Below are positions 35,651-53,225 of a DNA stretch of 64,000 nucleotides, in pieces. The notes under the pieces are model-generated. The model ran no database searches and was not told the DNA's origin. It saw only the letters and a list, made by a program, of their open reading frames with translations. Within the stretch, counting starts at the first letter, position 1. Every line of letters begins with the position of its first letter. The DNA comes from Actinokineospora sp. NBRC 105648. GTDB taxonomy: Bacteria > Actinomycetota > Actinomycetes > Mycobacteriales > Pseudonocardiaceae. Made by a program: the position numbers and the translations under genes. Location of the stretch: positions 1 to 64,000 of the forward strand of contig NZ_BSTR01000027.1 in assembly GCF_030269645.1 (NCBI RefSeq), written 5' to 3'.

Positions 35651-36182
35651 TGACAACCTCCCACCTCTACGCGTGCCGATGGGCGGGCAACGCGTGTCCC
35701 ATACGTCCGCTCAGTGTCACAGAACACGAGTCTGCTGACCTGACCCGACGTCAACAGGATGTCACCGCAGTCGTGGGCAGGGACAGGCAAAGGTGGCCAG
35801 CGGCACCTACCTGCGACCTCTTCGCTCGGAAGCCGCAAGTTGGAACGGGGTGTCATCGTGCATTTCAGTCATTTGCTCGACGAACCGAGTGTGACGCCGC
35901 TCGAGATCTTGCACCGGATGGTCTCGGCTAGTTGGCGGATGCGCCACTTGATCCAGTGGTAGAAGACGGAGCGACAGCAATGGACCGAAACTTCCCGAGT
36001 ATAGCAAGCTAATCCGGAGGATAGGTCCTGCTCGCAACCAGTGGGCGGAACCTATCGCTCTTGTTAGTCAGAGTCCTTGTAGAACGCTGACCTCGGCTCG
36101 TTCTAGGGACCTCGCTGGCAGCGCCGCCCCCACTGTTGCAGCTCGCTGATCGTCAACAGCTGTACCAGCTAGGGCTGGCTAC
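35651..36182. other. Intergenic stretch of the island, no gene seen
   Basis: About 530 bases of mixed composition. I find no frame with both a start context and coding-like composition. It may contain decayed sequence. Confidence 0.5.
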
Positions 36183-37930: not shown

Positions 37931-37944
37931 ATCGAGGGATGTGC

Positions 37945-38811
37945 ATGACGACCCGTCGTGAGTGGGGCGATCTGCCTGAACAGGTGAGGCGTGCGGTTGA
38001 AGATCGGACCGGCCCCATCCTCAAGGCGGAATCCGCGACATCTGGCCGAAACTCGGAACTGGCCAGCACCTTGTGGACGGCAGAGGGACCGCTCTTCTGC
38101 AAGGGTGTCACAACGGCATCGCCTCTTTCCGTCATGCATCACAACGAGATTGGTGTGAGCCCCTTCTTGCCTAGTGATCTCGCACCCCGCCTCTTGTGGC
38201 ATGTCGAAGAAGGGGGGTGGCTGCTGCTCGGGTTCGAGTATGTGCCCGGGCAGCATGCCGACTTCTCGCCAAACTCACCTGACATTCCCTCGGTGACGGC
38301 AGCGATTAGAACCGTGACTTCGCTGCCAGCGCCGCCCAGTTCGGCCGGGCGCCGCGCTATGTCCACTCAGTGGTCTCGCGCGCTGAGTGCCGAGATCGAA
38401 AGTGCCCCCTCTGATGGCTCAACCGGGTGGTCCATCGAGAATGCGGCCACCCTCACCCGATGGGCCTCACGGGCGCCGGAGTACATAGACGGATCAGCCT
38501 TGATCCACACCGACATGAACCCAGCGAACGTTCTAGTGTCGGATTCGGTGCGAGTGATCGACTGGGCATGGTGGCGCACCGGAGCTGCGTGGATAGATCC
38601 CGCCTTCGCCATCATCCGATTCATCGCGGCTGGCCACTCGCCATCACAAGCGGAAGAGTTGGCCGGCGAGATCCCGAGCTTCAGACAAGCAGACGCCGAA
38701 GGTGTTACCGCCTTTTCGGCATCCGTACTCCGTCTGTGGGAACGCAAGTTCGCGGGGACCGCACCCACCATCGCCGCTTGTCAATGGGTGCGGTACCGGC
38801 TGGAAAAGTAG
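37945..38811 (+). CDS. Aminoglycoside-phosphotransferase-fold protein
   Basis: 288 residues from ATG 37945, seven bases after GAGG. It has a kinase-like fold with the APH catalytic loop LIHTDMNPANVLV (HxDxxxxN) and the metal-binding VIDWAWWRTGAAWIDPAF (the IDW Asp). The N-terminal nucleotide lobe is short, and the usual Lys is in PLFCKGV. Related proteins phosphorylate antibiotics, sugars or choline; here the target is unknown. It likely forms an operon with the GRDP-like gene. Confidence 0.8.
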   Translation: MTTRREWGDLPEQVRRAVEDRTGPILKAESATSGRNSELASTLWTAEGPLFCKGVTTASPLSVMHHNEIGVSPFLPSDLAPRLLWHVEEGGWLLLGFEYVPGQHADFSPNSPDIPSVTAAIRTVTSLPAPPSSAGRRAMSTQWSRALSAEIESAPSDGSTGWSIENAATLTRWASRAPEYIDGSALIHTDMNPANVLVSDSVRVIDWAWWRTGAAWIDPAFAIIRFIAAGHSPSQAEELAGEIPSFRQADAEGVTAFSASVLRLWERKFAGTAPTIAACQWVRYRLEK

Positions 38812-39379: not shown

Positions 39380-40264
39380 TTACTGCTGACCCCTGCGAGC
39401 CGCCAACCCAGAACCCGCGACGATGGCCAGGAGACCTAATACGGTACTCCAGGAGATGTATTCATCTAGGAGTAGCCAACTAAGTAGGACTGCCACCCCT
39501 GGAGACAAATAAAACGCCAGGGTGGCTCTGGCTGGTCCAGCGTTCTGGATGAGCCAGTAATTCAGGTTCAGGGTAACGCCGGTAAATATAATGCCCAAGG
39601 TCAGAAGTGCGGCAGTGCTAGTAGTGGTGGGTCGGGCTTCGGGGAGGGCTAGGAGTCCGGGAGCCAGGAGCACAGCTGTGGATACCCCCATGGCCACGGT
39701 GGCAATACCCAAGGGTTCAGCAAACGTCAGGCGCTTGTGAATCAGGAGGGCGCCACAGGCGTAGCAGAAAGCCGCAGCTACAAGGAACAGACCACCAAGT
39801 AGTGCGCGGCTGCCGCCGCTGAGGTCAAGGCCAAACAGTAACAGGAGGCCCGCAAGTCCGAGAAACAGCCCTAACAACCCGCGGATTCCTTGCGGCCGTT
39901 CAGCGGGATCGAACTTGAGCGCTAAGACGGCCACAAACAAGGGCTGTGCCCCAATCAGGATGCCCGCCATCGCCGGAGATGAAAGTTCTTGCCCCAGGGT
40001 CAACAATAAGAGTGGCGCGGTGGCTTGCAGGAATACTGTCAATAGCAACCAACCGGGTTGCTGCCGGAGGCCGGAAAGTACCTTTCGCCGTAGCGCGAAC
40101 GGCAACAGGAAGAGAAATGCCAAGGTGGCGCGGCCCAGAACCACCACTACAGGCGGAAAACCTCGGAGCGCCACATCGATGACGAGATAAGCCCCACCCC
40201 ACAACAAGGACAGGAGCACTATGCCGGGAATGACGCCGCGGTGCAGGTGGAAGGTCTTAGCCAA
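39380..40264 (-). CDS. EamA/DMT-family transporter
   Basis: 294 residues with ten hydrophobic helices in two EamA halves. The first is GVIPGIVLLSLLWGGAYLVIDVALRGFPPVVVVLGRATLAF; the second contains LNYWLIQNAGPARATLAFYLSPGVAVLLSWLLLDEYISW, the family's C-terminal signature. It is an exporter of metabolites or drugs of unknown identity. The start overlaps the end of the upstream regulator (40257), so regulator and transporter form an operon, a typical inducible-resistance layout. Confidence 0.9.
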   Translation of the reverse strand: MAKTFHLHRGVIPGIVLLSLLWGGAYLVIDVALRGFPPVVVVLGRATLAFLFLLPFALRRKVLSGLRQQPGWLLLTVFLQATAPLLLLTLGQELSSPAMAGILIGAQPLFVAVLALKFDPAERPQGIRGLLGLFLGLAGLLLLFGLDLSGGSRALLGGLFLVAAAFCYACGALLIHKRLTFAEPLGIATVAMGVSTAVLLAPGLLALPEARPTTTSTAALLTLGIIFTGVTLNLNYWLIQNAGPARATLAFYLSPGVAVLLSWLLLDEYISWSTVLGLLAIVAGSGLAARRGQQ

Positions 40265-41507
40265 TGGAGGCCGTCAATGCCTGGACCTGCCCAAGGTGGG
40301 CGTACGGAGCGAAACTGGGAAGTAGCTCGGTAATGCGCCGTTGGTTGCGACCAGACTGGGTAAGTACTGCCAGCTTCCACGCGTCTCCAGCGATGGAGGC
40401 CGCCGTTTCTGGTTCCGGCGTTTTCGTTACCCGGTTTGCTTCCATGAGGTGTGCTTGAGCCAAATCAATGAGGGTGCCGGAACGTTCCCGAACGTAGTGC
40501 TCAGGGAGCAGTTCGCAGGCGCTCTGCAACGCGGCAATAGCACCCGGTCCGTCTCCGAGACGTACCAGGCAGCGACCTTTCAGGCGAGCCGCATGTTCCG
40601 GGGCGTTAAAGAATCCGAGCCATGCCGGAACGGTGTCAGACTCGACTTGGTCGAAGAGCTGTTCGGCTTGCGCCAAGGCACGGGCACCGGCCGGACGGTC
40701 ACCGGCGAAGGCATACGCCTCACCCATCGCTTCGTAGAGCCAGGAACGCACGGCCGGATTAACGCCTAACCGTGGGGTGTTGGCGATCCGGAGCGCGGCC
40801 TCCAGCAAGCGGAGCGCTTCGTGACCGCGCTGGGCATGGAGGTGGATATAGCTCATGACGCCCAGCACGTAGGCATGGGCGCCAGGATTTTCGCCCTCCT
40901 GGGCACTGGACAGGGCAACGGAGCAAAACTGCCTTGCAGTGGCGTAGTCCTGGCCGTCAATGGCGAGCCAGGCAGCGAGCTGCGCAGTGTCGCCAAGCAG
41001 ATTGACGTAGCGCTGGTAGAGGGTCGAGGGCACCTGGTCAGCCGCAGTCCACAGGCGGTTGAGATGGGAGACGGTGTCGCCGTAGACAGCCTGGGCCCCG
41101 GCCTGGTAGTCGATCTGTCGATAGTGGCTCGTCAGAGCCTCGTACTGACTCAGAAGTTCAGCGTGCATCGGCAGACCTCCTGACCGTGGACTGCTTACCG
41201 CATCGACTGTACGGCCGGTGGACTGACCAAGCGGTGACCTCCACACGGGTACGGATGCCGGACGATGCTGACAGCCCCCCGCTGCATCAGGCGAGCGCTC
41301 TAACGGAGCCAGCAGTTCCCGCAGTTCCGCCTGGTCGATTCCCAGCAACCGCCCCAGCTTTGGCCATAGGTAGGGCTGGGGCTGCGACTTGCCCGTCTCC
41401 CACCGGCTGACCGTGGTGGGGTCCACGTGCAGGGCCTCAGCCAGTCGTTCCTGGGTGAGGCCCTGGGACTTTCGCCTGCGCGCCAGCTCCGTACGTCTGC
41501 CCGTCAT
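40257..41507 (-). CDS. XRE-family regulator with TPR repeats
   Basis: 416 residues from ATG 41507. The HTH is RTELARRRKSQGLTQERLAEALHVDPTTVSRWETGKSQPQ, near the N-terminus. A linker is followed by TPR-like helices (AQLAAWLAIDGQDYATARQFCSVAL, ALRLLEAALRIANTPRLG, PAGARALAQAEQLFDQ, GAIAALQSACELLPEHY). Streptomyces-type regulators of this plan sense peptides or small molecules. It presumably controls itself and the EamA exporter. Confidence 0.88.
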   Translation of the reverse strand: MTGRRTELARRRKSQGLTQERLAEALHVDPTTVSRWETGKSQPQPYLWPKLGRLLGIDQAELRELLAPLERSPDAAGGCQHRPASVPVWRSPLGQSTGRTVDAVSSPRSGGLPMHAELLSQYEALTSHYRQIDYQAGAQAVYGDTVSHLNRLWTAADQVPSTLYQRYVNLLGDTAQLAAWLAIDGQDYATARQFCSVALSSAQEGENPGAHAYVLGVMSYIHLHAQRGHEALRLLEAALRIANTPRLGVNPAVRSWLYEAMGEAYAFAGDRPAGARALAQAEQLFDQVESDTVPAWLGFFNAPEHAARLKGRCLVRLGDGPGAIAALQSACELLPEHYVRERSGTLIDLAQAHLMEANRVTKTPEPETAASIAGDAWKLAVLTQSGRNQRRITELLPSFAPYAHLGQVQALTASIG

Positions 41508-41777
41508 GTGGACAGTCTTGCATGACAGCTCACGGCTTGTGTTCGGGCGGTTGCCGCAGGTCAACAGGCTAAGTGCCAAGTTCCTGCCGGGTTGCCACCA
41601 GGAACTGCCGTGTTCTGGGCGCTCCATGGACAGGACAGTCAAAGTTAAGACACCCGGCACCGGGCAGACCACTACCTACACGTGGGGACGCCAGAGCCGC
41701 GTCCACCCCCGCCGCGTGCAGGGACGGCCCCGGTGCCGGGTGTCGCCACTCTCCGGCGACCGTGGAGCAGGCCAGGC
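41508..41777. other. Divergent control region
   Basis: 270 bases between the XRE/TPR operon (leftward) and the small genes at 41778 (rightward). It holds an inverted pair CACCCGGCACCGGG (41651-41664) and CCCGGTGCCGGGTG (41729-41742), 14 bp arms 64 bp apart, a candidate looping operator. Confidence 0.5.
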
Positions 41778-41981
41778 ATGACCGACGGCAAACAGAAGCG
41801 AGCTAAACAGGTGACATTGACAGTCACCCTCACCATTCCAGAGCTCGCGGCGCTCAGCAGCACCACCGTGGTCGTGACTTCGACCGCCGAACAGGTCGTG
41901 ATCAATAACGCCGATCGAGCGCTTCGCAAGATCCGGGCAGCGGCCTTGCATCATCCCCAGTTGCCACCGGTCGTGCGTTGA
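41778..41981 (+). CDS. Small hypothetical protein
   Basis: 67 residues from ATG 41778 (weak GGAG upstream). Sequence MTDGKQKRAKQVTLTVTLTI then a Ser/Thr/Val-rich strand region ending in a short basic helix (NNADRALRKIRAA). It looks like a small alpha/beta or ribbon-type protein. It is first of three closely spaced genes with the resolvase-like and the 77-residue proteins. Function unknown. Confidence 0.55.
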   Translation: MTDGKQKRAKQVTLTVTLTIPELAALSSTTVVVTSTAEQVVINNADRALRKIRAAALHHPQLPPVVR

Positions 41982-42016
41982 ATCCCCTTCCCCTCAATAT
42001 GATCGGAGGTCCTATC

Positions 42017-42385
42017 GTGCCCGCGCCCTTGGTCTACGGCTACGTCCGGGTTGTTACGGACGACCCACTGTTTGTGCGATCCTGCCGTGAAGCACTGGCA
42101 GCCTGGTGTGCCCGCGAGGGCTGGCATCTAGGGGCAGTCTTCACCGACATTGGTTCGCCGCTAGACGTGGACAATCGCATTGGCTTCCGTGGGCTACTGG
42201 ACGCGGTGATCCTGCCGCGGACTACAGCCGTAGTAATGCTGGACAGCGGGCACCTGTCTTCACGTATAGAGGTAGCGACTGAGCTTGTGCGGCAACTGCG
42301 CCGTGCGGGGGTAGCTGTGCGGGTCCGAGATGGTGACCTGCCACCGGGGGCTGGCAGCACCGAACGCAAGGCAGGTTATCGGTGA
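42017..42385 (+). CDS. Resolvase-fold protein lacking the catalytic serine
   Basis: 122 residues from GTG 42017, seven bases after GGAGG. LVYGYVRVVTDDPLFVRSCREAL aligns with the YxRVSxxxQ start of serine recombinases, but Val-Thr replaces the nucleophile region. GWHLGAVFTDIGSP and NRIGFRGLLDAVILPRTTAVVMLDSGHLSSR follow the recombinase fold. There is no HTH or zinc ribbon. It is probably a catalytically dead relative, perhaps modulating the element's recombinase. Its stop overlaps the next start. Confidence 0.7.
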   Translation: MPAPLVYGYVRVVTDDPLFVRSCREALAAWCAREGWHLGAVFTDIGSPLDVDNRIGFRGLLDAVILPRTTAVVMLDSGHLSSRIEVATELVRQLRRAGVAVRVRDGDLPPGAGSTERKAGYR

Positions 42386-42752: not shown

Positions 42753-44792
42753 TTATGGACCAGGAAGTAGGTTTTTGACCCGGGCAAGCAGGTATGATAT
42801 CTCATCTCTAGTCCGGCTTTCAATGTCCGAATTGAGCCAGTTCTCTGCGAATCGAATAGGAGAAGCAAGCCAGTCCTCCCGTCCCGCGCTCGCTTGCGCT
42901 TGCTCTAGCAGTGCCTTTAGGAAAGTGACCCGGTAGTCTTCGTGTAGGACGAGCCGTATGTCGAGACTTAGTGCCATTTCAACCAAGACACCATAGAGCT
43001 TTACTAATAGGTAAAGCTCTTTCGCCTCTGCTAACTGTATAACGTTGACACTACCGGACAAGATGTCTCTGCGAAATGTCCTACTTGGATAGACTTCGTA
43101 TGAGACAGCATGGAGGTCATCAATCAAAACACCATCAACACTTACGCTACGTCGTAGGGCCAAGAACATGGATTGATCCACAAGGACTATACACTCCCAA
43201 CCGGGAATATGCCCGTATGTCAAAAGGGCCTCGATCTGGAGATACCTAATGGTGTTCCTGGGGCCTAGTTCTCTCTCTACCTCGAAATATTTTGCCTCGT
43301 TTTGGAGCGCCAATAGGAAGTTCATGTCGGTTTTACGGCGCTCCTCACTTCGCAAGTCTCTCATTATCCGCCACGTGAGTGGATGCATAGTGATATTTGC
43401 AAACGGCGACGTGTTACTAGTGTTTCTTCGGATCAATCCATATTCTTCGAGCTTATTGTACGCAAGCTCAATTCTCATTTGATTCTTTTCCTGCGGCAGT
43501 ATCTGCCAAAAGACAAAGATTGCCGTATCTACTGTTGAAATTGCACCCATTCCCATAGAGGACAGCACACTGTCAAGGGCAGCAGTGACAATCTCGTTGA
43601 GTAGAATGTCTTCCAGGATTAGCTCATACAATTGCACTATTCTAGCTTTTTGTGCGGCCAGGGTTTCTATGAAGCTGATTGTTTCGGGTGCATTTTCAAC
43701 AAGTTTTTCTACAAATTGTGCGACACTAGTAATCCATGACTTCTTTAGGAATCTTGCCGCAAGCTCAAGTGCGAGCGGGCGGCGCCCGAGGGTAGATATA
43801 AGAGCCTGCACGTCTGCCTTAGTTATAGCGGGCAACATGCGCCCGATAAGTTTCTCAGCCTCTGACTGCGTAAACTCCATCAGTTCAAGTGCATCGAAGT
43901 TTCCTTGGGGACGCGTTCGGCTCGTGATGAGGATGGGAATTCCCGGATTCTCAGGAAGAAGTGTCGAGAGCTGATCTTCATTGAAAATATCGTCGACTAC
44001 TACCGCGCTCAACATACTGGGTGCTTCAAGCCGTTTGCGAAGGATGGCGGTACGTGTATGGCACTCCCATAAGGCCGGATCTACACCATCAGCAATTAAC
44101 GCACCAATGGTATCTGATTCGAGCGCTTTCCTGCTGGCGGGTCTTAGCTTTGCGGTCGGTCTCCCGTTGCTAATCTTAGCAGCCATGAGATCAGCCAGTG
44201 TTGATTTCCCTGTTCCAGGCTCTCCCCATATCCAGATTATTCTTGCACCTTGATTTACAAAGTCGGTAATTTTGCGAAAGTATTCCTCGCGCGCAACTAA
44301 GTTGTTTGAGTTTTCGGGTTCTATAGCTTGGCCGGATGTAGCAATTGTTTTGCGGTTGGCTAGTAATGCTGTGGATAATTGGTCAACTGCGTGATCAAAG
44401 TCGCGCTGTTGCGTCTTTATCGGGCAAGGGTATTCCGAGCGTTGGCTGAACCATTTGCGTCGCGCTCCAAGTTTCATATGCACTCCTGTGGGAGTATGAA
44501 AATTGAAAGCAACCATCGCAATGTGTACATACTGTATTTTGCGTTGCGCGACCGTAAGCGCCTGCCGTGCAGGCCGCGGTGCCAATTGAGCGATATGCCC
44601 ATTGATGATGTTTCTCAGCGCCCTTCGTACGTCGCGCAGATCACCAGAGGGGTCTACTGCTAAAAGCGCGCAAAGTTCCCCCAGTTCATTATCAAGCAGT
44701 TGCCTAAAGTCTGAGTCTGTACGCATAATGCCTTCATTACGAGCAAGCAGATGCAGTGCTTCGCGTAGTCGTGCGCGTATCTCCGTAGTCAA
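42753..44792 (-). CDS. NB-ARC-type STAND NTPase
   Basis: 679 residues. Walker A is GEPGTGKST at 190-198, Walker B AVVVDDIF near 263-270, sensor 1 ILITSRT at about 288-294, a GLPL-like GRRPLALELAARFL, and MHPLTWRIM in the winged helix in place of the MHD motif. The C-terminal part is helical and without clear repeats. Residues 1-70 form a small helical N-terminal domain of unknown type, possibly an effector-associated adaptor. STAND NTPases act as ligand-triggered switches, in bacteria often in antiphage defence or as regulators. Its AT-rich codon use contrasts strongly with the chromosome. Confidence 0.85.
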   Translation of the reverse strand: MTTEIRARLREALHLLARNEGIMRTDSDFRQLLDNELGELCALLAVDPSGDLRDVRRALRNIINGHIAQLAPRPARQALTVAQRKIQYVHIAMVAFNFHTPTGVHMKLGARRKWFSQRSEYPCPIKTQQRDFDHAVDQLSTALLANRKTIATSGQAIEPENSNNLVAREEYFRKITDFVNQGARIIWIWGEPGTGKSTLADLMAAKISNGRPTAKLRPASRKALESDTIGALIADGVDPALWECHTRTAILRKRLEAPSMLSAVVVDDIFNEDQLSTLLPENPGIPILITSRTRPQGNFDALELMEFTQSEAEKLIGRMLPAITKADVQALISTLGRRPLALELAARFLKKSWITSVAQFVEKLVENAPETISFIETLAAQKARIVQLYELILEDILLNEIVTAALDSVLSSMGMGAISTVDTAIFVFWQILPQEKNQMRIELAYNKLEEYGLIRRNTSNTSPFANITMHPLTWRIMRDLRSEERRKTDMNFLLALQNEAKYFEVERELGPRNTIRYLQIEALLTYGHIPGWECIVLVDQSMFLALRRSVSVDGVLIDDLHAVSYEVYPSRTFRRDILSGSVNVIQLAEAKELYLLVKLYGVLVEMALSLDIRLVLHEDYRVTFLKALLEQAQASAGREDWLASPIRFAENWLNSDIESRTRDEISYLLARVKNLLPGP

Positions 44793-46501: not shown

Positions 46502-46669
46502 GTGCCACGAAAGTCACGGAAGCAACTGGTTGGGAAAGTCGAAGATCACGAACGCCGGGAGCGGGAGAAGTTGCTAGGCCAACTGGCTGAAACACTACGA
46601 ACAGAACGGTCAACGCGTAGAAGTGTCGGTACTTGCCACAACGAGCACATCCGTCCACCTGCGGCGTAG
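46502..46669 (+). CDS. Small basic protein
   Basis: 55 residues from GTG 46502, six bases after GGAGG. Very charged: MPRKSRKQLVGKVEDHERRE then a Leu-zipper-like REKLLGQLAETL. Possibly DNA- or membrane-associated. It is the last gene before the promoter/operator region at 46692. Confidence 0.5.
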   Translation: MPRKSRKQLVGKVEDHERREREKLLGQLAETLRTERSTRRSVGTCHNEHIRPPAA

Positions 46670-46691
46670 TGTTGTGAAATAGTTGTAGCGC

Positions 46692-46748
46692 TTGATTGTC
46701 TCAACTGTGAGACGTATAACTAATAGTGTACGTCTCACAGTTGAGACA
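46692..46748 (+). promoter_or_regulatory. Transfer-operon promoter with double operator
   Basis: A -35 TTGATT (46692-46697) and -10 TATAAC (46715-46720) are spaced by 17 bp. The spacer is filled by operator GTCTCA-ACTG-TGAGAC (46698-46713). A second copy, GTCTCA-CAGT-TGAGAC, lies just downstream (46732-46747). The two form 20 bp perfect inverted arms (46697-46716 and 46729-46748). The same operator stands before the XRE gene at 50252. Binding would block RNA polymerase. Confidence 0.85.
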
Positions 46749-46780
46749 CTTAACTACCCAGGGAGGCATTTGGACGAAGT

Positions 46781-46945
46781 ATGGCACGACAACAATGGAT
46801 CTTTCGGGTGACAAAAGCGGGACGCCACTTCCCTCAACTTGACCTCCTAGTCGCGGCACTACTTGCCCTTGGCGATCAGTTTGCCGCTGAACAGCAGACT
46901 GCAACTACAACGCAAGGCAGTACGCATAGGGAGGCTCAGAAATGA
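46781..46945 (+). CDS. Small hypothetical protein, first of the transfer operon
   Basis: 54 residues, ATG 46781, preceded by GGAGG at 46762-46766, rather far. Sequence MARQQWIFRVTKAGRHFPQL followed by a hydrophobic helix (DLLVAALLALGDQFAAEQQ). Its stop overlaps the start of the coupling ATPase gene (ATGA at 46942). It begins directly after the double operator, so it is the first gene under that control. Confidence 0.6.
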   Translation: MARQQWIFRVTKAGRHFPQLDLLVAALLALGDQFAAEQQTATTTQGSTHREAQK

Positions 46946-49242
46946 GTGGAACCCTTTTCCTGTTGTTGTGTCTTGGTATGGGGCTGGCTATGCCGTTGTT
47001 GGTGATGGGGGCTCGTGTACTCGAAGCGGACAGTTGGCGACGGAAGCTTGTTGCCTATCAACTCATTCCGCCAGGCTCGCTGACTCATGAGGCTGTGACC
47101 TCCTGGCTGTCTACGGTGGCTGCGGCCACCCATCCCAGTTGGTTTACACTACTGCCGGTTTCACCCGTGGTGTTTGAGGTTATCAGCGATGCCTACGGTA
47201 TTCGGTATTTCATTCTCGTCGCTGGAAGCGACCGGGCTTCCCTGCTATCAGGGATACAAGCTGCCATGCCGGGTAGTCGGTTGACCGAAGCCTCTGATTA
47301 CCTACATAGTGGCAAACGATTTTTGGTAGCAGCAGAACTGACCATGACCAGTCACGTCCGGCCCCTAGCCAGTGATCGAGCTGACCAGGTCAGCACGGCT
47401 TTGCTAGCAAGCTTGCAACCGGTTCCGCCGGGTAGCTCCGTGCGGGTGCAATGGATATTCACCAGCGCAGGCACACCGGAGCCAATGCGCACGGTCCCCA
47501 GTGATATCCACCCGAACGGTTCATGGTTCTGGGAAGACACCCCGCCCGCAGATGCTGAAGCGGTGCGTGCGGCCCGGCTCAAGCATCAGGGTGCACAGCT
47601 CATGGCAGTAGCCCGTATGGGTATTGAGGCCAAGGAATCAGCACAGGCGTATGCCTTGCTGCGACGGACTTGGCATCACTGGCACGGTTTGAACGCCATT
47701 GGAGTAAGGCTACGGCGCCGGCTCCTGCCTTCACGAATAGTGACACGGCGAGTGGCTGAGCGGTCAATGCCGGTGACCCGCTGGCCACTCACGCTGTCGG
47801 TCAGCGAGGCCGCCGGACTACTGGCATTGCCATTAAACGGAGCACGATTGCCCGGTGTGCAGACCGGGGCCGCGCGCCAGCTCCCGCCGCTTGCCTCTTC
47901 TCCACTGCATGGTGCGACAATTGGGCACAGTAATTACCCGGGACTGACGAAAATGCCACTGCGGGTTAGTGCGACCGACCGGCTTCAGCACCTTCACCTT
48001 ATCGGGCAAACTGGTACCGGAAAATCCACCCTTATTGCCAGCCTTGCTTTGCAGGATATCGCAGCAGGGCGCGCTACAATCGTGGTAGACCCCAAAGGTG
48101 ATCTGATCGCTTCCATTGCCGAGCGCATCCCGGACGGTCGCCATGATGACGTTGTCATCATTGATCCCAGTAACGTTAGTGGGCGTATAGTCGGGTTCAA
48201 TCCACTGCAAGTTCCTCGGGGTAGTAATGCTGAACTCGTGGCCGATCGAGTGTTGACTATCCTGCACTCAATTTACCGCGAGTTTTGGGGACCGCGGACC
48301 GATGACCTGTTACGGGCAGCGCTATTTTCGCTGACCCATACCCGGGCGCCGGACGGCTCAGATTTTACATTGATCGAGATCCCTGACCTATTTACTAACC
48401 CCGGGCTGCGGCAATACGTTATGCGGCAGCCTTCTCTACCGCCACACTTGCGGACCTATTGGCAGCAGTTTGACGCGCAAAGTACAGAGGCACGGTTGAA
48501 CGCCATTGCTCCGGTGCTCAACAAGCTGCGGGCGTTCACTATGCGGACACCAATCCGGCTCATGCTCGGACAGAGTGATGGTATCCGCCTTGACGCGCAA
48601 TTCCGTCGCAAGTCAGTCTTGCTGGTGTCCCTCGCTAAAGGAGCGCTCGGTTCCGAATCCGCACACCTGCTTGGCTCCCTATTTGTTGGAGCACTGTGGC
48701 AGGCAACGTTGTCACGGACACAATTTCCCCCCGAGCGCCGCGCACCAGTGTTCGCGTATTTGGACGAGTTCCAGGATATTGTGCGGTTCGGTACTTCCTC
48801 AGATTTGGCTGACATGCTCGCCCAAGCGCGCGGCCTCGGGCTGGGATTGGGACTGGCGCATCAATACCTCAACCAGCTCTCAGCGACCATGCAACAAGCG
48901 GTGCTTGGCACGGTGCGCTCCACGGTGGCCTTTCAGACTGACCACAATGACGCCGTGGCCCTTGCGCGGCGGTTTGCTCCCTTGGTGGCCGCTGACCTTC
49001 AAGGGCTATCTGCCTATGAAATCGTCGCCCGGCTGAGCACCAACGGCGCGACCGGTATGCCGGTAACCGGCGTGACACTGCCGCTGAGCGAGGCAACCGG
49101 GGGTGCGCACGAGCTGGCCACTGCCAGTCAGCAGCGTCACGGTAGAACTCGGGACACGGTCGAAGCAGGCTTAGAAGCTCGATTGGATCTACCCGGCCCG
49201 GTGCGGCCTGGACGGCGCACTTGGCCCGGGGGTGCAGCGTGA
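46942..49242 (+). CDS. VirD4/TraD-like coupling ATPase
   Basis: 766 residues. One N-terminal membrane helix (LFLLLCLGMGLAMPLLVM) and an extended region precede the motor domain. Walker A GQTGTGKST at 355-363 follows HLHLIG, and ATIVVDPKGDLI is the typical T4CP strand. Walker B is VFAYLDEFQDI at about D608-E609, and LGLGLGLAHQYLNQL is the sensor. It belongs to the VirD4/TraG-TraD or DUF87/HerA-like superfamily that drives DNA through a conjugation pore. No relaxase gene is nearby, so DNA substrate recognition must differ or be supplied in trans. Confidence 0.9.
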   Translation: MSGTLFLLLCLGMGLAMPLLVMGARVLEADSWRRKLVAYQLIPPGSLTHEAVTSWLSTVAAATHPSWFTLLPVSPVVFEVISDAYGIRYFILVAGSDRASLLSGIQAAMPGSRLTEASDYLHSGKRFLVAAELTMTSHVRPLASDRADQVSTALLASLQPVPPGSSVRVQWIFTSAGTPEPMRTVPSDIHPNGSWFWEDTPPADAEAVRAARLKHQGAQLMAVARMGIEAKESAQAYALLRRTWHHWHGLNAIGVRLRRRLLPSRIVTRRVAERSMPVTRWPLTLSVSEAAGLLALPLNGARLPGVQTGAARQLPPLASSPLHGATIGHSNYPGLTKMPLRVSATDRLQHLHLIGQTGTGKSTLIASLALQDIAAGRATIVVDPKGDLIASIAERIPDGRHDDVVIIDPSNVSGRIVGFNPLQVPRGSNAELVADRVLTILHSIYREFWGPRTDDLLRAALFSLTHTRAPDGSDFTLIEIPDLFTNPGLRQYVMRQPSLPPHLRTYWQQFDAQSTEARLNAIAPVLNKLRAFTMRTPIRLMLGQSDGIRLDAQFRRKSVLLVSLAKGALGSESAHLLGSLFVGALWQATLSRTQFPPERRAPVFAYLDEFQDIVRFGTSSDLADMLAQARGLGLGLGLAHQYLNQLSATMQQAVLGTVRSTVAFQTDHNDAVALARRFAPLVAADLQGLSAYEIVARLSTNGATGMPVTGVTLPLSEATGGAHELATASQQRHGRTRDTVEAGLEARLDLPGPVRPGRRTWPGGAA

Positions 49243-49376
49243 ACGGTGTTGGGTTCGGTGTTGGTATCGGTGTGGGGGTCGGGAGCGACCTGCACTGGCC
49301 GTTTTCGCTGGTAATCGCACTACGAGCGGCAGTAACGACATGGAAAGTCTGTCCTCCACCAGGAGCATCCTCATGA
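49239..49376 (+). CDS. Tiny coupled ORF between ATPase and replication-relaxation genes
   Basis: 45 residues. GTG 49239 overlaps the ATPase stop (GTGA) and its own stop overlaps the next start (ATGA, 49373-49376). The start is NGVGFGVGIGVGVGSDLHWP, a Gly/Val hydrophobic run, followed by LVIALRAAVTTWKVC. The double overlap is strong evidence of real translation. It may be a small membrane peptide. Confidence 0.55.
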   Translation: MNGVGFGVGIGVGVGSDLHWPFSLVIALRAAVTTWKVCPPPGASS

Positions 49377-50185
49377 CGGGCGGGCATGACGTCAGCCGCG
49401 TGCGACAAGCTCATGTCGACTGGGTAGTCGAACGGCTCACTCCGCGGGACTGGTCCATCCTGACTGATCTTGATCGGTTACGCCTACTGACAGGCTCACA
49501 GCTCGAACGGCTCCACTTCCCTGACCTCCACGACCGTTCGCGCTCGGTGGTGCGTTGGCGGGTACTCAAGCGTTTGACCGACTGGCGGGTCATCTCACCT
49601 CTATCCCGCCGCGTTGGGGGTAGCAAGCGAGGCTCAGCCGGTGCGGCCTACACCCTCGATAGCGTTGGACTACGGCTCATCCAGCTTCAGGATGGCATCG
49701 GAGCACACCAACAGGTGCGTCGGTCAGCGCTGCCAGGTGAACGCTTTTTGGGGCATATTCTGGCCGGTAGCGAGCTGTTCGTGCGACTAGTGGAACAGGC
49801 GCGTACAGGTGCGGGAAAGCTAGCTGACTACCGTGCTGAACCTCGGTCATGGCAGCCGGACGGCCTAGGCGGCTGGCTCAAGCCCGATGCCTATATTCGA
49901 CTGGTAGGCGGCGGCGTAGAAGACAACTACTTTGTAGAGATCGATCGAGCCACTGAGCATATATCAACTATTAGTCGTAAGGTGACTGTCTATCTCGACT
50001 TCTATCGACGTGGGCAGCTCGGTCCCCATGGCATAATGCCCCGAGTACTTTTTGTGGCACCCGACGGCAGTCGCCGCGATGCGCTGAAGCGAATGATCGA
50101 GTCAAACCCTGGACATCTCGATCTCTTCATCGTAGAGACAGAGGCGACCGCAGCGAGGTCCTTATTCATGGAGCTGACGTCATAA
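49373..50185 (+). CDS. Replication-relaxation family protein
   Basis: 270 residues from ATG 49373, seven bases after AGGAG. A winged-helix N-terminal domain (RLTPRDWSILTDLDRLRLLTGSQLERLHF, then RSVVRWRVLKRLTDWRVIS) is followed by the family's nuclease-like core: LKPDAYIRLVGGGVEDNYFVEIDRATEHISTISRKVTVYLDFYR. These proteins were first described from plasmid replication and relaxation regions and are frequent in actinobacterial conjugative elements beside TraD-like ATPases. The D/E-xD...K arrangement resembles PD-(D/E)xK nucleases, so it could supply the missing nicking function; that is inference. Confidence 0.8.
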   Translation: MTGGHDVSRVRQAHVDWVVERLTPRDWSILTDLDRLRLLTGSQLERLHFPDLHDRSRSVVRWRVLKRLTDWRVISPLSRRVGGSKRGSAGAAYTLDSVGLRLIQLQDGIGAHQQVRRSALPGERFLGHILAGSELFVRLVEQARTGAGKLADYRAEPRSWQPDGLGGWLKPDAYIRLVGGGVEDNYFVEIDRATEHISTISRKVTVYLDFYRRGQLGPHGIMPRVLFVAPDGSRRDALKRMIESNPGHLDLFIVETEATAARSLFMELTS

Positions 50186-50202
50186 AGCGTTGCAAAAACT
50201 AC

Positions 50203-50232
50203 GTCTCATCATTGAGACGATCGTGGTAAAAT
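50203..50232 (+). promoter_or_regulatory. Repressor-gene promoter with operator
   Basis: Operator GTCTCA-TCAT-TGAGAC (50203-50218) lies nine bases before an extended -10 TGG-TAAAAT (-10 hexamer 50227-50232). The start codon at 50252 is preceded by AGGAGG at 50239-50244. The same operator occurs twice in the transfer promoter at 46692-46748, implying that the XRE protein encoded here represses itself and the transfer operon. Confidence 0.82.
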
Positions 50233-50251
50233 GGTGTTAGGAGGATAAGTT

Positions 50252-50605
50252 ATGGATCGAAACTCGGTAGACAACTCTTTGCCAACACTGGGCAGTACCA
50301 TCCGCCAAGCGCGACAAGAAGCGGGCTTGTCAATACGACAACTGGCGCCCATGGTTGGCGCTCACCATTCGGTGCTGGCCAAGATTGAGGCTGGCGACGT
50401 GACCCGGCCTACCGGTGTGATGCTGCAAAATATCGCTCGTGCGTTGGAGTTGGACGTGACCGACCTACTGCGGTTTGTGGGTGTGGACGCACCATTGCCA
50501 CCGGCAAAAGTCTACTTTAGGCGAGCCTACAACATGACCGATAAGGAACAAGCGGCGGCGGAAGCCGCGATACAGAAGATATTGGACCAACGAGAGAAAG
50601 AATGA
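50252..50605 (+). CDS. XRE-family repressor (ImmR-like)
   Basis: 117 residues with AGGAGG seven bases upstream. The HTH is STIRQARQEAGLSIRQLAPMVGAHHSVLAKIEAGDVTRPT, and a C-terminal helix (MTDKEQAAAEAAIQKILDQREKE) probably dimerises it. The order repressor, ImmA-type protease, recombinase is like the ImmR-ImmA-Int module of ICEBs1, in which the protease cleaves the repressor to induce excision. Operators in front of this gene and the transfer operon fit that role. Confidence 0.85.
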   Translation: MDRNSVDNSLPTLGSTIRQARQEAGLSIRQLAPMVGAHHSVLAKIEAGDVTRPTGVMLQNIARALELDVTDLLRFVGVDAPLPPAKVYFRRAYNMTDKEQAAAEAAIQKILDQREKE

Positions 50606-50623
50606 TAAGCGAAGGGAGGAAAC

Positions 50624-51259
50624 ATGAGTAGTCCACTAAGCAATGTCGTACGCGAGGTACGGAGTCTGACGCCAGCCTATCCGTTGGCTGATTACCAAGC
50701 ACGGGGTATCGCCGAACGGCAGGCGGCGAAACTACTAGAACTATTAGACATCACTGTCGCGCCAGTTGATATAGGCCGCATTATTGAGCTGCCCCGGCTC
50801 AACGTCATGGTGTGTTCGTCTAAACAAATGGGTGGACTGTCGGGACTATCTGAATGGCACAAAGGGGCATGGCGGATAGCTATTAACAGGGACGACAGCG
50901 CCACACGGCGACGATTCACACTGGCCCACGAGTTGAAGCATGTACTGGACCATCCGTTTATGCGCGTACTCTACACCGACCGTGACGGCCGGACTGACCC
51001 GACGTACGTCGAAAATATCTGCGACTACTTCGCGGCCTGCCTGCTCATGCCGCGTGCATGGGTCAAAGAAGCCTGGTCGACCGGCACACAGGATGTGGAC
51101 AACCTAGCCCGACGATTTCGTGTTTCGCCTGCGGCCATGTCCCGCCGCTTGAGTGACTTAGGACTTGTTGGTCCACATCCGCGACACTTCCCCGATCGTT
51201 CGGTCGTCCGTTACTTCCGTGCCGCTCCTGAATCTGTCACCTATTGCACAGCCGCGTAA
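50624..51259 (+). CDS. ImmA/IrrE-type metallopeptidase
   Basis: 211 residues. The zinc motif HELKH is at 102-106 in RRRFTLAHELKHVLDHP, followed by YVENICDYFAACLLMPRAWVKEAW, the usual second half of the site. A C-terminal HTH-like segment (DVDNLARRFRVSPAAMSRRLSDLGL) is present. Family members cleave their partner XRE repressor on a stress or quorum signal. It lies 18 bp after the repressor and 13 bp before the recombinase gene. Confidence 0.92.
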   Translation: MSSPLSNVVREVRSLTPAYPLADYQARGIAERQAAKLLELLDITVAPVDIGRIIELPRLNVMVCSSKQMGGLSGLSEWHKGAWRIAINRDDSATRRRFTLAHELKHVLDHPFMRVLYTDRDGRTDPTYVENICDYFAACLLMPRAWVKEAWSTGTQDVDNLARRFRVSPAAMSRRLSDLGLVGPHPRHFPDRSVVRYFRAAPESVTYCTAA

Positions 51260-51272
51260 GGAGACTACTACC

Positions 51273-53225
<1,953 letters not shown>

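Follow-up and report, generated by a model that had tools for sequence, protein, structure and literature searches.

The first 64,000 nucleotides of contig NZ_BSTR01000027.1 from Actinokineospora sp. NBRC 105648, referred to here as the window, carry an element that fits the description of an integrative and mobilizable element (IME) at a tRNA-Pro gene. Three copies of the palindrome GTCTCA-N4-TGAGAC, called operators 1 to 3, are located at two promoters of this element, and on the basis of sequence analysis we consider it very likely that they are bound by a 117-residue XRE repressor encoded by the element. This repressor would silence the mobilization genes as well as its own xre-immA-int operon, and the ImmA-type protease encoded by the adjoining gene would relieve the repression. 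The sites and promoters are as follows.

46692–46720, plus strand: mobilization promoter, with −35 hexamer TTGATT (46692–46697) and −10 hexamer TATAAC (46715–46720), read from the sequence and from the same geometry in relatives.
46698–46713, no strand assigned: operator 1, which fills the spacer of the mobilization promoter (pattern search and geometry in relatives).
46732–46747, no strand assigned: operator 2, which lies 34 bp from operator 1, falls on the transcript start or immediately past it, and forms inverted 20-bp arms with operator 1.
50203–50218, no strand assigned: operator 3, occupying the −35 position at the xre promoter (pattern search and geometry in relatives).
50224–50232, plus strand: extended −10 of the xre promoter, TGGTAAAAT (sequence and geometry in relatives).

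A window scan that tolerated two mismatches, a setting at which shuffled sequence gives a mean of 2.28 matches, recovered all three copies with zero mismatches at the coordinates given by the original prediction. That prediction had also named a genome-wide search for the motif as a check. Among all 8,428,408 bases of the genome, exact copies are confined to these three places, all of them in the window, and a reversed control pattern does not occur. When one mismatch is permitted, the genome holds seven sites (these three and four elsewhere), compared with two for the control pattern. The motif is therefore not frequent in this 8.43-Mb genome. Operators 1 and 2 sit in arms that are exact 20-bp reverse complements (46697–46716 and 46729–46748), as had been claimed, and a repeat search widens these arms to 25 nt at 92%.

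The placement of the three copies relative to the promoters is likewise as originally predicted, wherein copy 1 was said to fill the spacer, copy 2 to lie where the transcript starts, and copy 3 to precede an extended −10 of the XRE gene. Operator 1 takes 16 of the 17 spacer bases between TTGATT and TATAAC, the remaining base being a G. Operator 2 begins 11 bp past TATAAC, which is about at the transcript start or just downstream. The hexamer TAAAAT (50227–50232) begins 8 bp past operator 3, or 7 bp past its 18-base form CGTCTCA-N4-TGAGACG, the form used for gap measurements in relatives, and it is preceded by the TG (50224–50225) of the extended −10.

The genes that these promoters precede are listed below.

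46781–46945, plus strand: 54-residue open reading frame (ORF) at the head of the mobilization operon (ORF reading).
46942–49242, plus strand: VirD4/TraD-type coupling protein of 766 residues (profile matches).
49232–50185, plus strand: PF13814 (Replic_Relax) protein of 317 residues (profile matches).
50252–50605, plus strand: XRE repressor of 117 residues, CapH/ImmR-like (profile matches).
50624–51259, plus strand: ImmA/M78 metalloprotease of 211 residues, whose HEXXH motif is HELKH at residues 102–106 (profile matches).
51273–53225, plus strand: large serine integrase (the longest ORF runs from 51165, with a likely ATG at 51273).

Profile searches with the XRE protein return HTH_3 (E 1.6e-11) and, over residues 10–115, the CapH model (E 1.3e-9), followed by HTH_VI (4e-9) and RmrA (3.2e-8). 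Among solved structures, it matches 7t5u, which is listed as a helix-turn-helix (HTH) protein and which we take to be a CapH-type HTH, as well as 8bny ("Immunity repressor protein") and, weakly, the ICEBs1 ImmR HTH 7t8i (E 3.8e-4). The description of this protein as an ImmR-like XRE was thus correct as to the repressor type, but its best named match is CapH in the libraries searched, which may lack an ICEBs1 ImmR model, and the match to the solved ImmR HTH is weaker. The claim that an ImmA-like protease lies beside xre stands: the protein encoded by the adjoining gene matches Peptidase_M78 (E 1.2e-22), the CapP model (E 2.2e-22, with RmrA next at 8.1e-16), and the solved structures of IrrE (3dte) and CapP (7t5t). 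Residues H102, E103 and H106 are invariant across 15 aligned protease sequences, all 15 of which, the window's included, match the CapP model, and the CapH model matches 18 of 19 aligned XRE proteins.

The protease covers positions 5–153 of the 242 in the CapP profile, and its content of a single-stranded DNA (ssDNA) domain was judged by length and coverage only. CapP and PprI are activated by ssDNA (PMC13373217, PMC10904395), and PprI truncated of its C-terminal, GAF-like domain shows neither ssDNA binding nor stimulation (PMC10904395). Because the present protease has only 211 residues and PprI without its C-terminal domain is unresponsive, the trigger of this protease may differ from ssDNA.

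Searches with the XRE, the relaxase and the DNA yielded 28 distinct loci, window included (each other locus has an L number; L153, which is the same as L045, was dropped before counting). In these loci the coupling protein, PF13814 relaxase, XRE and ImmA genes are collinear, and an integrase gene comes next in most. The named relatives are mostly actinobacterial, with L100 coming from a bin labeled Bacteroidetes. Most xre promoters of the 28 loci carry a palindrome with a half-site of their own, and in 22 of the loci the sequence extends further than 300 bases upstream of the coupling gene. For these 22, 7-4-7 palindromes were sought from −170 to +20 of xre and from −600 to +10 of the coupling gene, and the highest-scoring pair with one member in each zone was kept, the score rewarding both good palindromes and half-sites in common. 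Own pairs reach a mean of 22.41 versus 19.79 for permuted pairs, and none of 100,000 permutations, which ignore relatedness among the loci, reaches the own mean. All of these permutations used a spacer of 4. The margin of own over mismatched pairs is 1.6 to 3.0 points when the spacer is 0, 2, 4 or 6, lengths that have a symmetry axis in common, and at most 0.6 for odd spacers and for those above 6. Shared exact 9-mers discriminate poorly (18 of 32 own pairs versus 271 of 992 mismatched).

For each locus, we counted the coupling-gene regions whose score equals or exceeds that of its own region, the own region included. The own region is unrivaled in 8 of the 22 loci and among the top three in 14; the count for the window is 2. 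Reading the scans together, a matching copy is present at the mobilization promoter in 16 of the 22 (the window, L018, L019, L020, L032, L053, L065, L068, L071, L109, L152, L154, L156, L157, L158 and L168), among which L032 is weak (count 8) and L109 moderate (count 5). Two operator copies 34–40 bp apart are found in 10 of the 22.

The geometry seen in the window recurs in its relatives. At 23 xre promoters, with L075, L150, L155, L035 and L056 lacking a palindrome or left out, the −10 was taken as the best hexamer 0–15 bp past the operator, and it begins 7 bp past the operator end in 18 cases, 8 bp in four and 10 bp in one. This near-fixed distance means that the operator covers the −35 place. 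Thirteen of the 16 mobilization promoters were examined in the same manner, leaving out L018, L053 and L068, where the cognate copy is downstream of the spacer. In all 13, a TTGA hexamer starts 4–5 bp before operator 1, and in 11 the chosen −10 gives a 16–17-bp spacer. The filling of the spacer at the mobilization promoter and the covering of the −35 at the xre promoter are thus recurrent, despite differing operator words.

Inverted repeats beside relaxase genes are typical of an origin of transfer (oriT), and the 20-bp arms at operators 1 and 2 could be all or part of such an origin or a hairpin at the relaxase nick site, wherein the likeness to copy 3 would be secondary. The arms do lie directly upstream of the coupling-protein and relaxase genes, and a further conserved box lies just upstream of them. 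A relaxase site, however, should go with the relaxase and not with the XRE, whereas the same half-site is present at the xre promoter, varies by element in step with the XRE, and keeps fixed distances to the −35 and −10. We regard the oriT explanation as very unlikely.

A role for xre-immA as a toxin-antitoxin pair with plain autoregulation, in which control of the transfer genes is incidental, is a highly improbable alternative. Operator 3 alone would give autoregulation, and the Streptococcus mutans pair is annotated by a database as a putative toxin-antitoxin module (PMC10233336). When tested, though, that TnSmu1 pair did not behave as such a module (PMC10233336). In addition, two of the three operator copies are at the mobilization promoter, and in most relatives the XRE and ImmA genes lie between those for the relaxase and the integrase.

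We compared 26 XRE proteins (25 of the 28 loci, with L075, L150 and L155 lacking a palindrome or left out, plus L021) with operators that had been hand-picked from the promoter sequences without reference to the proteins. The distance between operators correlates with the distance between XRE proteins most strongly for residues 35–48, the recognition helix (r=0.440), then for the whole HTH (r=0.385) and the HTH minus the helix (r=0.266), with none of 20,000 permutations as high in any of the three. The partial correlation is 0.39 for the helix given the rest of the HTH and 0.15 for the rest given the helix. Two residue–base combinations rank highest, residue 40 with base 6 of the half-site and residue 38 with base 5: Asp38 occurs with G at base 5 in 11 of 11 cases and Asn38 with T in three of three, and Ser40 occurs with C at base 6 in 13 of 15 and Ala40 with A in six of seven. 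That one repressor links the two promoters, as the original prediction proposed, is supported by this tracking together with the rarity of the motif in the genome and the same layout with different half-sites in relatives.

One pair of loci illustrates how specificity might change. The XRE proteins of L017 and L021 are the same in 44 of 50 columns after residue 70 and in 21 of 55 in the HTH, and their operators differ. Between L017 and L029, which is on another contig of the L021 genome, the ImmA proteins agree in 193 of 216 columns. This looks like an exchange of the DNA-reading half alone. More broadly, and with a little less than even confidence, we suggest that these loci represent a widespread, mostly actinobacterial IME family with one switch design and many private specificities, in which the HTH co-varies with the operators and both the C-terminal part and the protease are kept. 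Such a family might form immunity groups as in temperate phages, and much of the specificity might be explained by a simple code that pairs residue 38 with half-site base 5 and residue 40 with base 6.

Several results weigh against the proposal that the XRE controls both promoters, beyond the neglect of relatedness in the pairing permutations and the hand-picking of operators noted above. Operator distance also correlates with distance in the C-terminal part of the XRE (r=0.278, reached in 55 of 20,000 permutations), and so shared ancestry contributes to the tracking. The search over all residue–base pairs is not significant family-wise, the top score being reached in 24 of 300 permutations, which take no account of shared descent. 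Neither L017 nor L021 showed a copy of its own operator at the coupling gene. A generic sigma-70 scan listed neither the mobilization promoter, because TATAAC lacks the final T that the scan demands, nor the xre promoter, because there is no separate −35 there. The calling of both promoters rests on comparison with relatives.

The same generic scan scored operator 3, on the minus strand, as a possible terminator, where a 7-bp stem is followed by a T-rich run. That the palindromes are transcription terminators or attenuators nevertheless seems most improbable, since no T run accompanies copies 1 and 2, the region has about as many terminator-like sites as expected by chance (four found, mean 3.7), and the distance to the −10 hardly varies among relatives.

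A later search in another family provided a hold-out set of 12 loci, from which L187 (a repeat of L109) and L198 (without a coupling gene) were removed. In the fixed scan, the cognate pair is at the expected places in three of the remaining 10 (L190, L191 and L192), and the other seven do not fit, which indicates that the fixed 7-4-7 form is not general. Even for the three that fit, 2, 2 and 4 of 31 control regions, respectively, score as high, their xre operators are nearly the same, and the loci are close to each other. No ImmA profile match was found in L190–L192, L191 reaching the end of its contig at that point. Judged by eye, L194 and L197 fit. The top-scoring pair of L189 (24, with none of 31 controls as high) was not counted, its xre site lying at −161, outside the promoter; the fit of L188 was not judged, its coupling-gene start being uncertain. 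By eye, and likewise not counted, the mobilization promoters of L194–L196 have longer-spaced palindromes of the CGGGTCA or CGGGGCA type at the same spacer position.

Two further searches concerned viral contigs. At least two close copies of GTCTCA-N4-TGAGAC occur at seven loci there (L010–L016), none of which matched the XRE, ImmA or relaxase profiles, and these loci give no evidence for the present family. Unrelated regulators may use the same word. Two relaxase relatives in viral contigs also had neither an XRE nor an ImmA match.

Finally, 6 of the 22 loci have no accepted cognate operator at the mobilization promoter (L017, L038, L147, L148, L149 and L150; the 10-base word common to the xre and mobilization promoters of L147 was not counted), and to call the switch complete, as the original prediction did, goes too far. 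These loci also bear on the idea that the main control is exerted by a different regulator, or by an activator encoded by the element or host, with the XRE serving merely to tune expression. A candidate site for such an activator is present upstream of both promoters.

46671–46684, plus strand: second conserved box, GTTGTGAAATAGTT, upstream of the mobilization promoter (pattern counts).
50189–50202, plus strand: degenerate second box, GTTGCAAAAACTAC, upstream of the xre promoter (by eye; it fails the strict pattern).

The word GTTGTNNAA, a pattern chosen after these promoters had been looked at, occurs 19 times in the 12,160 bp of the two promoter zones of the 28 loci versus 19 times in the 406,587 bp elsewhere, an enrichment of about 33-fold. 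All but one of the 19 promoter-zone matches are on the strand of transcription. In many elements the word GTTGTNNAA(T) precedes the mobilization promoter, the xre promoter or both, and in most matches it starts about 21–27 bp before the start of operator 1 or 14–21 bp before that of the xre operator. It is unchanged in elements with different operators, and among 64 other loci that have a coupling gene, nine carry it upstream of that gene, six of them within 300 bp. GTTGTNNAA is possibly an activator site. Primary control by another regulator is unlikely in our estimation, as the cognate palindrome is at the mobilization promoter in the 16 loci listed above, in 13 of them inside the core promoter.

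If the XRE is the repressor of both promoters, then a dimer at operator 1, between the −35 and the −10, would block the mobilization promoter, and a second dimer at operator 2, on the start site, would help to shut the operon for the 54-residue ORF, the coupling protein and the relaxase. At operator 3, a dimer sitting on the −35 position would hold xre-immA down. The integrase gene starts 13 bp after immA, and operator 3 therefore probably controls the serine integrase too. The repressor most likely keeps both promoters off or low until the activated ImmA-type protease cleaves it in its conserved C-terminal part, and its loss would turn on the relaxase, the coupling protein and probably the integrase together.

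The gene order immR-immA-int is that of ICEBs1, which differs from the present element in its relaxase, integrase and host phylum. The two are alike in that a repressor and an anti-repressor protease control an integrated element, as described for ImmR and ImmA in Bacillus subtilis (PMC6540685), but the present operators are at two promoters about 3.5 kb apart, and the XRE is a weak match to the solved ImmR HTH. An immR-immA pair is also found in TnSmu1 of S. mutans, where lifting repression activates the element (PMC10233336). Unlike the present element, TnSmu1 is larger, streptococcal and equipped with predicted conjugation genes (PMC10233336), and the words "operator," "palindrom" and "binding site" are absent from the main text of that paper. 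CapH and CapP, which regulate cyclic oligonucleotide-based antiphage signaling system (CBASS) and other immune operons, are likewise an XRE repressor and an M78 protease. The present pair instead sits at mobilization and integrase genes and not at a defense operon, and its protease has 211 residues versus 291 in the solved CapP chain.

VirD4, PF13814/MobC and serine integrase genes in a similarly compact order make up IME_Class_8 of streptococci, a class of two streptococcal elements (PMC5357655), whereas the present element is actinobacterial and has the XRE-ImmA pair between relaxase and integrase. The main text of that paper does not use the word "repressor." A review names a single canonical IME from Actinobacteria (PMC5704250), and among the actinomycete integrative and conjugative elements of Frankia, XRE regulators are present in 11 of 16, small ones near pra and larger NsdA-like ones (PMC3218068). 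Neither GTCTCA nor TGAGAC appears in the main text of a study of XRE palindromes (PMC12565409). By titles and abstract openings, a coverage that most subscription papers lie outside, we found no description of this switch in an actinobacterial IME and little on the regulation of actinomycete mobilizable elements.

In this element the repressor, the operators and the promoters under their control can each be specified to the base, and relatives that use other half-sites serve as ready controls; the same layout, often seen with a different switch word in related elements, makes the on/off logic directly testable. If the proposal is true, then the repressor/protease switch of ICEBs1 and CBASS also governs elements without their own mating pore, and it could tie their excision and mobilization to DNA stress in the host or to a helper's arrival.

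The borders of the element are suggested by the following features.

35809–35824, no strand assigned: putative other attachment (att) end, a 16-bp exact copy of the tRNA-Pro core (exact repeat).
52996–53072, minus strand: tRNA-Pro(CGG) (tRNA scan).
53018–53033, no strand assigned: putative att core inside tRNA-Pro(CGG) (exact repeat).

The 16-bp copy, together with a fall in GC content from 0.71 to 0.61 at 35809–35824, suggests that the element spans about 17.2 kb. The integrase frame runs on across the putative attR and antisense of tRNA-Pro(CGG), and the C-terminal end of the integrase as read here depends on integration. The element has a VirD4-type coupling protein, a PF13814 protein, which is filed as a MobC-type relaxase in PMC5357655, and a serine integrase, the combination that defines a VirD4/MobC-class IME. 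Among the ORFs scanned from 35.8 to 53.0 kb, with other overlapping or short ORFs outside the scan, no match to VirB4 or another mating-pore protein was found, and these mobilization genes without such a gene fit an IME. The "transfer operon" of the original prediction is more exactly a mobilization operon (VirD4-type coupling protein and PF13814 relaxase). Plasmids hold no near match to 46600–51300, with one weak protein match in Rhodothermus, and Rfam at the gathering threshold returned nothing besides signal recognition particle RNA and tRNA.

The 54-residue ORF overlaps the start of the coupling-protein gene and matches nothing in Pfam, NCBIfam or PHROGs; several relatives, such as L018, L020 and L032, have by eye an ORF of similar size at this position. 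Genes in the left half of the element encode an APH-type phosphotransferase (37939–38811, plus strand), an NsdA-family regulator (40257–41672, minus strand) and, as a 135-residue ORF, a protein with a resolvase N-terminal domain (41978–42385, plus strand). An AT-rich gene at 42753–44792 (minus strand), with 47–49% GC over most of its length, encodes a 679-residue NTPase with weak AAA/NACHT/STAND and FxSxx-TPR matches, which is possibly cargo and perhaps serves in defense.

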